Shown here piece after piece: positions 5,890 through 10,390 of a stretch of 64,000 nt of DNA. The position numbers and the translations under genes are program-made. Source of the stretch: Rhodothermales bacterium (GTDB taxonomy: Bacteria; Bacteroidota; Rhodothermia; Rhodothermales; UBA10348). Location: assembly GCA_017643395.1 (NCBI GenBank), contig JAEPNP010000002.1, positions 412,290 to 476,289 of the forward strand. The letters are read 5' to 3'. Each line of letters starts with the position of its first letter. The stretch's first letter is position 1. The notes below the pieces were generated by a model, which saw only the letters and a list, made by a program, of their open reading frames with translations, had not been told where the DNA came from and did not search any database.

Positions 5890-7476
5890 CTAACGCACCA
5901 CCGTGAACGGCCGGGCCCGCGCCGTGCTTCCTTCCAGCCGGGCGTAATACGTACCTGCTGCCAGCCTCGAGACGGATATGGTGGCGCTATTTGACCCCGG
6001 CCGCAGGGTGACCGGGTGCAGACCGACACGGGCGCCCCGCACATCGTAGATCGCCAGGCGCCCGGCCAACAGTCGATCCGATTGCGTCTCGATCGTTACG
6101 TGACTGGTAGCGGGCGATGGGAAAAGCGCCTCGATCCGCACTGCGCCTGGCAATTCCGGGCCGCGAGCCGCGCTCACGCTGGAACCCAGAAAGCCCAGGC
6201 GGTCGAACACGCCTCCCAACACCTCCGGCCACGCGGGCAGTTCAAACCAGCCGGCCAGCACGGTCGCATAGACTTCCCGGAAGTCGACCGAGTAGCGGAG
6301 GTCGCCATTGTCGTCCAGGTTCGTGAAGTCAGGCGCCGTCCCGTGAAAGCCGCCTTCCAGGTTCGATCCAAAAATGAACTGGGGCGCAACCGTGGCATGG
6401 TCTGTTCCACGAGATCCGTTCTCGCGCATGGTCCGGCCAAACTCCGAGAACGTCATCACAAGGACGTCCTCGTCCAGGCCACCCGCCTCCAGATCCGTCA
6501 GGAAAGCCTCGACGCCGCCGGCCAGCTGAGCCAGCAGGACGTGATGGTCGTTTTCCTGCTCGCTGTGCGTGTCGAAACCGTCCAGGCTGACATGGTAGAT
6601 GCGGGTACCCAGGCCGCCCCGGATCATGCGGGCCACCGCAGCCAACTGTTCCGAGAACTCACCGTCCGGATAGTTCGCCCGGTTTGGCGTGCCGTCCAGC
6701 GCTGCGGCGACAGCCTCCGAATACCGGAATGACGAGTTGGCTACCTCCCGCATAAATGCCATTTCCAGGCCGTAGGGCGTGGCGGGCACAGCCAGCGGGT
6801 CGAAAGTCGGCCCACCGTCACCCAGATCCTGTACGGCCCCGCTCACGGTCATGCCCAGGTTGGCATCACGCCCCCTGAACATCATCGAGGCACCGCCCAG
6901 TTGCACTCCCACCGGAGAGCTCGGGAGATTGCCGATGTACTCCGGGTGCAGGGATTCCAGCGCGCGCCCTCCCCATCCGGTACGGTCGTACACGTCGGAG
7001 TTCGACGCCGATACCCAGATGTCGGTCGACCTGAAATGGCTCAAATCCGGCTGTGGATAGCCCACACCCTGGATAACCGCCATGTTGCCGTCGGCGAACC
7101 GCGTACTGAGCGGAGCCAGTGCCGGGTGGAAACCAAGGTCTGCGCTCACCGGAATCACATCGGCTTCCCGCAGCCCGAGCCGGGGCCGTTGCCGGTGGTA
7201 CTCGTCCTCCCGGAACGGCACGATCGTATTCAGCCCATCATTGCCGCCGGCAAGCTGGATCAGCACCAGCGTGCGCCCGGCGGCCTGGCCGGCAAGTGCG
7301 TTGAGCAGGGAGTTCTGCCCCATCGCCCGCATGGGCAAGCCGCCATGCAGCATGACACCGGCTGAGGCGAGCCCGAGCCCGGAAAGAAACTGCCTGCGGG
7401 TCCACGATTCGTGGTCCGCAGTGTGCGCCGCACCATCCTCAAGCCGCGCACCATGTCGATTGTCGTTGCGACACAT
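5890..7476 (-). CDS. DUF1501 secreted protein with T9SS sorting domain
   Basis: 528 aa exported protein of the DUF1501 family (sulfatase/alkaline-phosphatase-like fold). A Tat-type signal SWTRRQFLSGLGLASAG lies near residues 23-40. The conserved core includes LVLIQLAGGNDGLNTIVP, SLDGFDTHSEQ and MTFSEFGRTMREN. The last 80 or so residues form a T9SS type A sorting domain (LFPSPATSHVTIET to the end), so the mature protein is probably surface-attached or released. The ATG at 7476 is 2 bp from the DUF1800 stop. DUF1501 and DUF1800 genes are paired in many Bacteroidota and Planctomycetota; their biochemical role is not established. Confidence 0.86.
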   Translation of the reverse strand: MCRNDNRHGARLEDGAAHTADHESWTRRQFLSGLGLASAGVMLHGGLPMRAMGQNSLLNALAGQAAGRTLVLIQLAGGNDGLNTIVPFREDEYHRQRPRLGLREADVIPVSADLGFHPALAPLSTRFADGNMAVIQGVGYPQPDLSHFRSTDIWVSASNSDVYDRTGWGGRALESLHPEYIGNLPSSPVGVQLGGASMMFRGRDANLGMTVSGAVQDLGDGGPTFDPLAVPATPYGLEMAFMREVANSSFRYSEAVAAALDGTPNRANYPDGEFSEQLAAVARMIRGGLGTRIYHVSLDGFDTHSEQENDHHVLLAQLAGGVEAFLTDLEAGGLDEDVLVMTFSEFGRTMRENGSRGTDHATVAPQFIFGSNLEGGFHGTAPDFTNLDDNGDLRYSVDFREVYATVLAGWFELPAWPEVLGGVFDRLGFLGSSVSAARGPELPGAVRIEALFPSPATSHVTIETQSDRLLAGRLAIYDVRGARVGLHPVTLRPGSNSATISVSRLAAGTYYARLEGSTARARPFTVVR

Positions 7477-7478
7477 GA

Positions 7479-9143
7479 TCAGGTGAGCTGGTATTCGGGC
7501 TGACGCACGAGATTGTAGAGGAAGTACCGGATGAGCTGCGGCGCCTCCTGACGCTGCAATACCCACTCGTACCAGGGGAATCCGGTCAGAAAACGTCGCG
7601 CCACGACCTGCCGATATTCCGGCCAGTCCAGCACCTCCTGAGGGATCGGGTTGTTCACCAGATCACCCGCGAACTGCGGATTGCCGCCGTCCGTGATGTG
7701 CGCCTGCTCCAGTGGAACCGGCATCACATGTTCGGCGATGGCGACGGCTAGCTTGAAAGGCGCTGCAGCGTCATTCGGGTCGTGTAGCGCCGTCGCGAAA
7801 GCGCGGACCGCATCGTCCGTCATCTCCTGGTTGTGGTAGATAAACCACCCCCCGAAATCCCAGCGAAGCGGCAGGGTGTTCGTATTGATCCAGTCCCGGT
7901 ATCCCGGCCAGCCGGCCACGTTGGGGGGAAACAGGATCCACTGATTCAGCTCGGCGGGCCCCCAGTAGAGTCCCAGGCGCAGGTCCTCATCCAGCGGAAT
8001 GCCCAACTCCGTCACCATGCCGACCATCAGCTGCACCGGCATCTTGATCTGCGCCCCGCGCAAGGCCTCATCCTGCAACTGTGACGAGGTCAGCAGCTGA
8101 CGGATGACCGGCTCCAGCTCGAAATCGGACTGCACCATGGTGTCCGCGAGCTCCGCAATCACGCCCGGGTCCGGCACCTCGTGTACAAACTCCCGATACA
8201 GCTTTGCGCAGATGAATTCGGCAATCTGCGGGCCGCGGGTCTCGAACACGATGTCGACCACCTGGTCGTAGTCAAACTCCCCCGTTCGCCCCAGGAATGT
8301 CTTTTCGCCTGTGTCGTGGAGGAAGCGGTTGAAATAGACATCCAAACGGTGCCAGTCTACCGTCCAGCCCGTTAGGGCGCGGGCTATCTGGGCGATGTCC
8401 TCTTCGGTGTAGTTGACGTTTCCGGCACTGTCCCGGGGGCCCATCGTGAAGAGCTCCAGCAGCTCGCGGGCGTAGTTCTCGTTCGGCGCGGCTTTCTCGT
8501 TGAGGTAGCCGTCCAGGTAGTAGAGCATCGCCGGCTGCAGCCCCATCGTGCGGACAAAATCACGGAAGTTGCCGAGTGCGTGGGTCTCGAGGGTCTTCCA
8601 ATAGCGCCAGGCGAACGCGGAAATGAAGTAGCTGTCGAAGCTGGTCACGAAATGGTCGTGCCAGAACACGGTGAGGCGCTCCAGCAGGCCGCCCTGAACC
8701 TGCGATTCGGTGATGTTGCCGGCCAATTCCAGCCACCAGGCTTCATTCAGGGAGAAAAACTCCTCGAACGCCGCCTCGGAGGCGTACTGATGGGGCGGCT
8801 GGGTGTTGGCCCAATCGGGCTCCTCCATCCCGGTCGATGCGACTGCCTCATCTACGAGCCTCGATGCCGCTTCCACCCCCGTGAGCCCCACAAGAGGGGC
8901 GATGGCGTCCGGCGCTGCGCCGAAGCCCGCTCGTCGCAGCAAGTGACGGGCACCGGCCTTATCGAGTACTTGCGTGGCCTGCGAGAGCGAGGCGCCCTTG
9001 CGCGCAGCCGGTGCCACCGGAGTCGCGGAGGGTGGAGCAGCCGGCCGAGCCGGTCTGGGCACTTTCCGTTCGAGCGCGGCAACCTGATCCCGCCAATGTC
9101 CCAGCGACTTTGCGGTCGGTGATCTGGTTTGCGCAGCCCTCAC
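7479..9143 (-). CDS. DUF1800 domain protein
   Basis: 554 aa member of DUF1800, a large family always seen next to DUF1501. Typical blocks are HLLRRAGFGAAPDAI near residue 70, ERLTVFWHDHFVTS, NENYARELLELFTMGP, IARALTGWTVD and FPPNVAGWPGYRDWIN. No clear signal peptide is seen; the first 60 residues are Pro/Ala-rich and of low complexity. Its ATG overlaps the stop of the cysteate-synthase-like gene (9140-9143), which places three unrelated-looking proteins in one operon. Function unknown. Confidence 0.86.
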   Translation of the reverse strand: MRAAQTRSPTAKSLGHWRDQVAALERKVPRPARPAAPPSATPVAPAARKGASLSQATQVLDKAGARHLLRRAGFGAAPDAIAPLVGLTGVEAASRLVDEAVASTGMEEPDWANTQPPHQYASEAAFEEFFSLNEAWWLELAGNITESQVQGGLLERLTVFWHDHFVTSFDSYFISAFAWRYWKTLETHALGNFRDFVRTMGLQPAMLYYLDGYLNEKAAPNENYARELLELFTMGPRDSAGNVNYTEEDIAQIARALTGWTVDWHRLDVYFNRFLHDTGEKTFLGRTGEFDYDQVVDIVFETRGPQIAEFICAKLYREFVHEVPDPGVIAELADTMVQSDFELEPVIRQLLTSSQLQDEALRGAQIKMPVQLMVGMVTELGIPLDEDLRLGLYWGPAELNQWILFPPNVAGWPGYRDWINTNTLPLRWDFGGWFIYHNQEMTDDAVRAFATALHDPNDAAAPFKLAVAIAEHVMPVPLEQAHITDGGNPQFAGDLVNNPIPQEVLDWPEYRQVVARRFLTGFPWYEWVLQRQEAPQLIRYFLYNLVRQPEYQLT

Positions 9144-10390
9144 GCCTCGCCCCGCACCACAGCGAATCCGGCCTCGACGGCTTTCGCCTTCGTCGTGATG
9201 GTCATCGGCTGCACCTGGCGCAGGGCTACCTCCCGCTTCAGCCGCTCCTGACCACCGCCGGAGACGTTGAGCAGAATCACTTCGTCCGAGGCGACGCGCT
9301 TGTCCGCAATGGCTTGTCGGAGGGCCGCCAACGCTACCGCGGCGGGAGACAGCACGTCGATGCCCTCAAGGCGCTCGAACATATCGGAGGCCTCCTGGGC
9401 TTCCATGGTGGACACCGAGTACGTATTGCCGTCACTGACCGTCAACACGTCGTGCAATCCTCCGATCACGTCGTACGCCGGCGTGCGGTTGACCAGGTAG
9501 TCCGAAAACACCTGCACGTCGCCATCGGGCATGTCCTCCGGAATGAACGAGCGGCGTCCGGCCTGCCAGGCATGGTGGATCGGCGCAAACGCCGAATTCT
9601 GGGCGATGTGGATGGCGGGCAGGTCTCCGGGCACGAGCCCTGCGTTCTTGATGCGCAGATTCATCTCGTGCACTCCGATCGGCCCCGGGCCACCGCCTAC
9701 GCCCTGGAAGTAGTGATGCGGCAGCCTGCCGGCCTTTTCAATCATCTCAAGCATCAGGGTGGCAATGCCGTCGCGGCGGGCCACGTTGTGCACGCCGCCC
9801 TCGCGACGCCAGCCGCCCTCCTCCATGATGGCGCCGGTAACGTCGATGGCATCGTTGTAGTGCCCATCGGCCACACCAATCAGACGAATGCTGTCCGTGG
9901 GGTGGTCCTCCGGAACCCAGATGCGCTTCAGATGCTGCTCGGCAACGACCAGCAGGATCGGATAGTCAGCGAGCCCCCCGAAATGGGCGAAGGCCCGGGC
10001 GGTGTTGCCGGCAGACGCGCAGATCAGGCCTGGAATATTGTGGTCCTTCAGGCGCTGCAGGGTTGGAACGGCCTCCAGGTCCTTGAATGTGGTCGTGGGG
10101 CAGGCACCTCCCCGCTCCGGCCAGTAACCGTGAAAGGTGATCCAGAGGTTGGTAAGGCCCAGCGCTTCTGCCAATCCCTCACTCTGATACGCGACCGTTC
10201 CGGCGGACAGTTCGGACGCCCGGGACGCCGGGAGCCACTTGCCCCATTTCCAGATGCCGGACTCGACGTCGGTCCGAGGAGTGCTCGAGGCATACTCGGC
10301 ACGCAGAAGAGCCCGGTGATGGTAACGGTTTGTATACCGGTCGGTCAGCCGGGCGTCGGTGGCCAGGCAGCGAAGGGCGTATTCAGCCAT
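9140..10390 (-). CDS. Cysteate synthase-like PLP enzyme (threonine synthase fold)
   Basis: 416 aa fold-type II PLP enzyme. The PLP lysine is K103 in TTTFKDLEAVPT, and the substrate loop ASAGNTARAFAH follows at about residues 125-136. The C-terminal glycine-rich phosphate site is LNVSGGGQERL. Several blocks match cysteate synthase of methanogens (O-phosphoserine + sulfite to cysteate) rather than ordinary threonine synthase: FHGYWPERGG, EGGVHNVARRDG, LPHHYFQGVGGG and IAQNSAFAPIHHAW. This comparison is from memory of the family. In bacteria of this group cysteate is the precursor of sulfonolipids (capnine-type), as known from Salinibacter and Bacteroidota. No acyltransferase partner is nearby. 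A threonine synthase with altered specificity is the alternative. Confidence 0.72.
   Translation of the reverse strand: MAEYALRCLATDARLTDRYTNRYHHRALLRAEYASSTPRTDVESGIWKWGKWLPASRASELSAGTVAYQSEGLAEALGLTNLWITFHGYWPERGGACPTTTFKDLEAVPTLQRLKDHNIPGLICASAGNTARAFAHFGGLADYPILLVVAEQHLKRIWVPEDHPTDSIRLIGVADGHYNDAIDVTGAIMEEGGWRREGGVHNVARRDGIATLMLEMIEKAGRLPHHYFQGVGGGPGPIGVHEMNLRIKNAGLVPGDLPAIHIAQNSAFAPIHHAWQAGRRSFIPEDMPDGDVQVFSDYLVNRTPAYDVIGGLHDVLTVSDGNTYSVSTMEAQEASDMFERLEGIDVLSPAAVALAALRQAIADKRVASDEVILLNVSGGGQERLKREVALRQVQPMTITTKAKAVEAGFAVVRGEA

Follow-up and report, generated by a model that had tools for sequence, protein, structure and literature searches.

Within a 64,000-nucleotide stretch of DNA from a Rhodothermales bacterium (hereafter the window), one gene had been predicted from sequence to encode a homologue of archaeal cysteate synthase rather than a threonine synthase, and perhaps to perform the first step of sulfonolipid synthesis. 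The locus therefore raises two questions: whether the encoded enzyme makes cysteate, and what that cysteate would be for.

Family, fold and presumed active site of the window synthase

In profile searches, the encoded protein passed the TIGR03844 cysteate synthase model (410.1 bits, cut-off 324.9, over residues 4–396 of 416), whereas all threonine synthase models stayed under their cut-offs, the best being PRK08197 (83.1 bits, cut-off 303), with the TIGR00260 ThrC model at 21 bits (cut-off 167). Pfam recognized the general PALP domain alone. A phmmer search of the PDB returned cysteate synthase 9k3c, which is the CapA2 enzyme of Alistipes finegoldii according to its deposited title and is 35% identical to the window synthase, at 257 bits; the best threonine synthase reached 34 bits. 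Structure prediction gave the same ranking. The AlphaFold2 model, for which the input alignment held 41 relatives from other contigs, had a mean pLDDT of 95.3 and a pTM of 0.93. With this model Foldseek placed 9k3c at the top (E = 2e-44) and threonine synthases next (4e-19), and VIA-align matched 9k3c with a Z score of 56.1 over 414 residues at 2.0 Å, compared with 39.0 for the best threonine synthase.

We then built a tree of 70 rows, comprising 64 cysteate synthases plus threonine-synthase-like paralogues, in which the two groups split with support of 100/100. The original prediction named two observations that would speak against it, a position among ordinary threonine synthases and a genome with no other ThrC, and we found the opposite of each: the window synthase sits in the separate cysteate synthase clade, and its genome contains both a ThrC that passes TIGR00260 (245 bits, cut-off 167) and, at 400 bits against a cut-off of 266, a threonine synthase of the PRK06381 type, as well as a cysteine-synthase-like protein. 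A further PALP-domain protein of 460 amino acids (L069:1408-2787 on the minus strand, G000:C3) matched none of the NCBIfam models at E 1e-5.

Lys103, the presumed Schiff-base lysine, was invariant in our alignment of cysteate synthases and the threonine-synthase-like outgroup, and all 45 positions that are invariant across the 64 family members are kept in the window synthase. Three positions distinguish the copies from Rhodothermales and Poseidoniales from the remaining cysteate synthases: Gly230 and Gly233 replace Ala and Ser, respectively, and Ser377 replaces Thr. Judged from the fold family, positions 230, 233 and 377 are presumed to contact the cofactor.

Table 1. Features of the window discussed in the text.
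Feature	Position	Strand	Remarks
L-cysteate synthase, CapA2/archaeal type (TIGR03844)	9140..10390	minus	416 aa, PLP fold type II, ATG start
DUF1800 protein	7479..9143	minus	PF08811 317 bits; GTG start
DUF1501 protein with T9SS C-terminal sorting domain, third in local run	5890..7566	minus	PF07394 104 bits, PF18962, TIGR04183
Lys103 codon, presumed PLP Schiff-base lysine, motif TTFKD	10082..10084	minus	role assigned from fold family
Codons of residues 230-239, GVGGGPGPIG, presumed PLP-phosphate loop	9674..9703	minus	cofactor role presumed
Codons of residues 377-380, SGGG	9251..9262	minus	proximity to PLP ring presumed from fold family

Profile, tree and predicted fold thus agree that this is a cysteate synthase and not a threonine synthase, as had been predicted. 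Family, invariant residues, fold and the presence of a threonine synthase at another place in the genome are direct observations, and the reaction follows from characterized relatives; we infer that the window gene product very probably makes cysteate. In the mechanism that we propose, Lys103 would hold PLP, and O-phospho-L-serine would form the external aldimine; elimination of phosphate would then give the aminoacrylate, to which sulfite would add before L-cysteate is released.

Distribution, phylogeny and gene neighborhood

Among 148 relatives searched, we found 13 full-length homologues of the synthase, 12 of them in the window's own family (f1) and one in a neighboring family, and a phylum-wide sample added nothing to this result. 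Even within f1 the gene is patchy, with full-length copies in 12 of 27 genomes and two further copies cut by contig ends. One genome carries two copies of equal score near opposite ends of the same contig (G019:C91, 15829-17001 and 216570-217742), possibly an assembly duplication.

Outside the Rhodothermales, the closest homologues belong to Poseidoniales archaea (47–53% identity), and more distant ones occur in Nitrospirota, Methanosarcinales and ANME archaea, and in Alistipes and Odoribacter, at about 36–43% identity. Nitrospirota members, and the one Poseidoniales member tested, also passed TIGR03844. In the 70-row tree all 13 Rhodothermales copies formed one clade (100/98) whose sister was Poseidoniales (98/95), the two together standing on a long stem. 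The tree called for by the original prediction therefore places the window synthase with Poseidoniales homologues inside the cysteate synthase clade. Rhodothermales and these planktonic archaea hold the subfamily in common by descent or transfer; because it occurs in Poseidoniales, exchange of the trait between archaea and Rhodothermales in marine habitats is probable.

The original prediction had also described the synthase as operonic with DUF1800 and DUF1501 genes. In the window this description stands: the stop codon of the synthase and the GTG start of the DUF1800 gene overlap as GTGA, so in this genome the synthase, DUF1800 and DUF1501 genes probably form one operon. The run was not found in the two same-genus loci that we read (G001 and, as a partial locus, G002), in which different genes flank the synthase, and other Rhodothermales genera have different neighbors again. 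Neighbors in the Rhodothermales loci include an LVIVD/FG-GAP secreted protein, a multiheme cytochrome with TPR, pyruvate kinase and MacB/FtsX permeases. The DUF1800/DUF1501 linkage looks specific to this genome, and we found no link between these two neighbors and cysteate metabolism. Scans for promoters and terminators yielded nothing above chance. We set aside the neighborhood as a guide to function, having found in the Rhodothermales loci neither a sulfonate link nor a conserved neighbor pointing to a product.

The surroundings of the Poseidoniales genes are of another kind. In loci L073-L088 the synthase often adjoins a UDP-sugar dehydrogenase, an MBOAT acyltransferase, a flippase, a glycosyltransferase and a TupA-type ATP-grasp protein, an arrangement that may reflect cysteate-decorated glycans or merely a shared genomic hot spot. 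A search for the TupA-type ATP-grasp family (PF14305), following the idea of glycan decoration suggested by these neighbors, produced no match in 41 relatives, but as there was none in the controls either, this negative carries little weight.

Candidate fates of cysteate

In the known route to sulfonolipids, CapA makes cysteate, CapB/SulA condenses cysteate with acyl-ACP, and CapC reduces the product, with an archaeal-type synthase taking the place of CapA in Alistipes and Odoribacter (PMC10191378; PMC9304779; PMC11211663). The original prediction put the window gene at the start of such a route and proposed a genome search for the cysteate acyltransferase. As the query for this search we used an Alistipes SulA, whose alignments with the solved 7u7h (837 bits) and with the cysteate-C-fatty acyltransferase 28eh (552 bits) covered the full length. 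True CapB (44–51% identity) was found in 35 of the 148 relatives (27 of them belong to f18, and f2, f6, f7 and f8 together supply the other eight); it was found neither in the window's own genome nor in any of the 27 f1 genomes, all synthase carriers included, where the best matches (about 34%) were SPT-type and Kbl-type enzymes. CapB-positive and synthase-positive sets were disjoint (0/13 versus 35/135; Fisher one-sided p = 0.025, with kinship ignored). As a positive control, the search recovered CapB with Lys281, the key residue of SulA (PMC9304779), in five of six Bacteroidales genomes carrying the synthase. As for the 3-ketocapnine reductase CapC, there are too many short-chain reductases for sequence alone to single it out. 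Because CapB/SulA is absent, the window synthase does not appear to feed the classic capnine pathway: its participation in sulfonolipid synthesis by the known route is unlikely, and the product that it feeds is probably not the classic lipid. A sulfonolipid could still be made by an acyltransferase that is of an unknown kind or has diverged strongly.

A capnine-type route could still begin with this synthase if the genome's remaining long-chain acyltransferase-like enzyme, which is of the SPT type (L036, G000:C1:1853759-1855030), served as the cysteate acyltransferase. The closest solved relative of the window synthase is, after all, CapA2 of a sulfonolipid producer, Bacteroidales that carry the synthase usually have CapB, and Salinibacter, a member of the order to which f1 belongs, has a sulfonolipid (PMC5167729). 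The properties of the SPT-type enzyme nonetheless render this distinctly unlikely. All 148 genomes have it, whether or not they carry the synthase, and it coexists with true CapB in other families; its best match is Sphingobacterium serine palmitoyltransferase (383 bits, versus 250 bits to 28eh); and it has Ala at the position of SulA Lys281, the motif reading HIFSASMP in this enzyme and its orthologues as opposed to [FY]AKSL in CapB (FSAS in 35 of 35 SPT-type copies found, AKSL in 32 CapB-type copies found). Nor does the analogy with Salinibacter help. One of the genomes searched, G038, has four rhodopsins and encodes a protein that matches the solved xanthorhodopsin 3ddl, which is from Salinibacter ruber, without a difference over 234 residues; on these grounds we regard the genome as that of S. 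ruber or a very near relative. It had neither a TIGR03844 match nor CapB, so the parallel that the original prediction drew with Salinibacter does not carry over.

The same absence of TIGR03844 synthase and CapB was noted for other f13 genomes, although S. ruber has the sulfonolipid halocapnine (PMC5167729), whose pathway has been stated to be undefined (PMC6508672). With both the window-type synthase and CapB missing from S. ruber, neither would account for the Salinibacter sulfonolipid. In halocapnines the carboxyl group of cysteate is retained, and this would make a decarboxylating CapB unnecessary in Salinibacter. We also observed, in families f8 and f2 (L240, L241, L242) and in G031, G032, G045 and G066, ORFs of 1100–1200 amino acids in which a CapB-type acyltransferase with the AKSL motif is fused behind AMP-binding (fatty acyl ligase-like) and acyl carrier domains. 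From its domain order this fusion is a candidate self-loading sulfonolipid synthase, and the literature that we searched contained no account of it.

If not to a lipid of the classic kind, cysteate could go to coenzyme M, to taurine or, should the enzyme have changed its specificity, might not be the product at all. A coenzyme M role, as in Methanosarcinales, would fit the loci of Nitrospirota and Methanosarcinales, in which the synthase adjoins sulfopyruvate decarboxylase genes, but no Rhodothermales locus has such a neighbor, and the beta subunit of this decarboxylase was not detected above the cut-off of 221.5 in the 31 genomes searched (the window's own, with a best score of 36.6 bits, and 30 relatives). 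We rejected this role because the decarboxylase is absent, and regard its probability as negligible. Decarboxylation to taurine by a PF00282 enzyme, for use as an osmolyte, has more to recommend it, as the genome encodes three PF00282 proteins and many marine organisms use taurine or sulfonates related to it as osmolytes. However, none of the three is a clear cysteate/cysteine sulfinate-type decarboxylase, the best being nearer to tyrosine decarboxylase (190 bits) than to cysteine sulfinate decarboxylase (118 bits), and within the family the strong PF00282 group has its matches among aromatic decarboxylases, occurs with or without the synthase and is missing from the window's genus; we therefore consider this fate rather unlikely. 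As for specificity, the subfamily of Rhodothermales and Poseidoniales could have turned to a different beta-replacement, with O-phosphoserine or O-phosphohomoserine as substrate: its clade stands apart on a long stem and has Ala230Gly, Ser233Gly and Thr377Ser fixed, and 35% identity to the solved enzyme together with three clade changes leaves room for another nucleophile or substrate. That such a shift took place seems very unlikely to us given that the TIGR03844 cut-off is well exceeded, that every family-invariant residue is kept, and that the genome has threonine synthases and a cysteine-synthase-like protein of its own.

The Nitrospirota loci merit a separate remark. In L092, L093, L096, L098, L110, L116, L118 and others, the synthase and a sulfopyruvate decarboxylase fusion adjoin each other, and the same loci encode CCG-domain/Fe-S proteins of the heterodisulfide-reductase type and a RACo-type corrinoid activator. 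By gene content, these loci resemble bacterial gene clusters for coenzyme M that are tied to corrinoid methyl transfer.

Implications and comparison with known systems

Weighing these fates together, we think it likely that the window gene encodes a cysteate synthase of the CapA2 type, newly added to a known enzyme family, that is an orphan in its Rhodothermales family and feeds a CapB-independent sulfonate. Supplying cysteate for such a sulfonate is its most likely role; the end product would be a small sulfonate of the osmolyte type, or else a lipid or glycan that bears a sulfonate and is produced through enzymes not yet known. More tentatively, and with some doubt on our part, the subfamily of marine Rhodothermales and Poseidoniales might as a whole feed an undescribed sulfonate, be it an osmolyte, a lipid or a surface glycan, without CapB or coenzyme M, its gene having crossed domains and its carriers being direct makers of cysteate. 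If the enzyme works as predicted, a cysteate synthase gene without CapB is no marker for sulfonolipids in Bacteroidota-related genomes, and its distribution suggests that marine group II archaea and marine Rhodothermales produce cysteate. Sulfonates of the sea, among them cysteate, taurine and cysteinolate, pass from one group of plankton to another, and little is known of the prokaryotes that make them. One study reports cysteinolic acid in marine microalgae (PMC8703288).

Set against characterized systems, the window synthase most resembles CapA2 of Alistipes finegoldii (9k3c), with which it has in common the full-length fold, the TIGR03844 equivalog family and the family-invariant residues, but Alistipes-type genomes have CapB/SulA for sulfonolipids and the window's Rhodothermales family does not. 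CapA of Capnocytophaga, the first enzyme of the capnine pathway, catalyzes the same reaction, producing cysteate from phosphoserine, and is described as no more than a distant relative of the archaeal-type enzyme (PMC10191378). Threonine synthase has PLP fold type II and the presumed lysine in common with the window synthase, yet the two are 12–22% identical in structural alignments, lie in separate clades and are kept apart by model scores far under the cut-offs. With the cysteate synthase of Methanosarcinales, which belongs to the coenzyme M pathway, the window synthase has TIGR03844 in common and about 41% identity; there, however, the gene lies beside what look like two separate genes for sulfopyruvate decarboxylase subunits, an enzyme that is absent from the window's genome. 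The homologues of Poseidoniales (marine group II) form its sister clade and have the clade-specific residues of the cofactor loop in common with it, but they often stand beside surface-polysaccharide genes, and such neighbors are absent beside the Rhodothermales gene.
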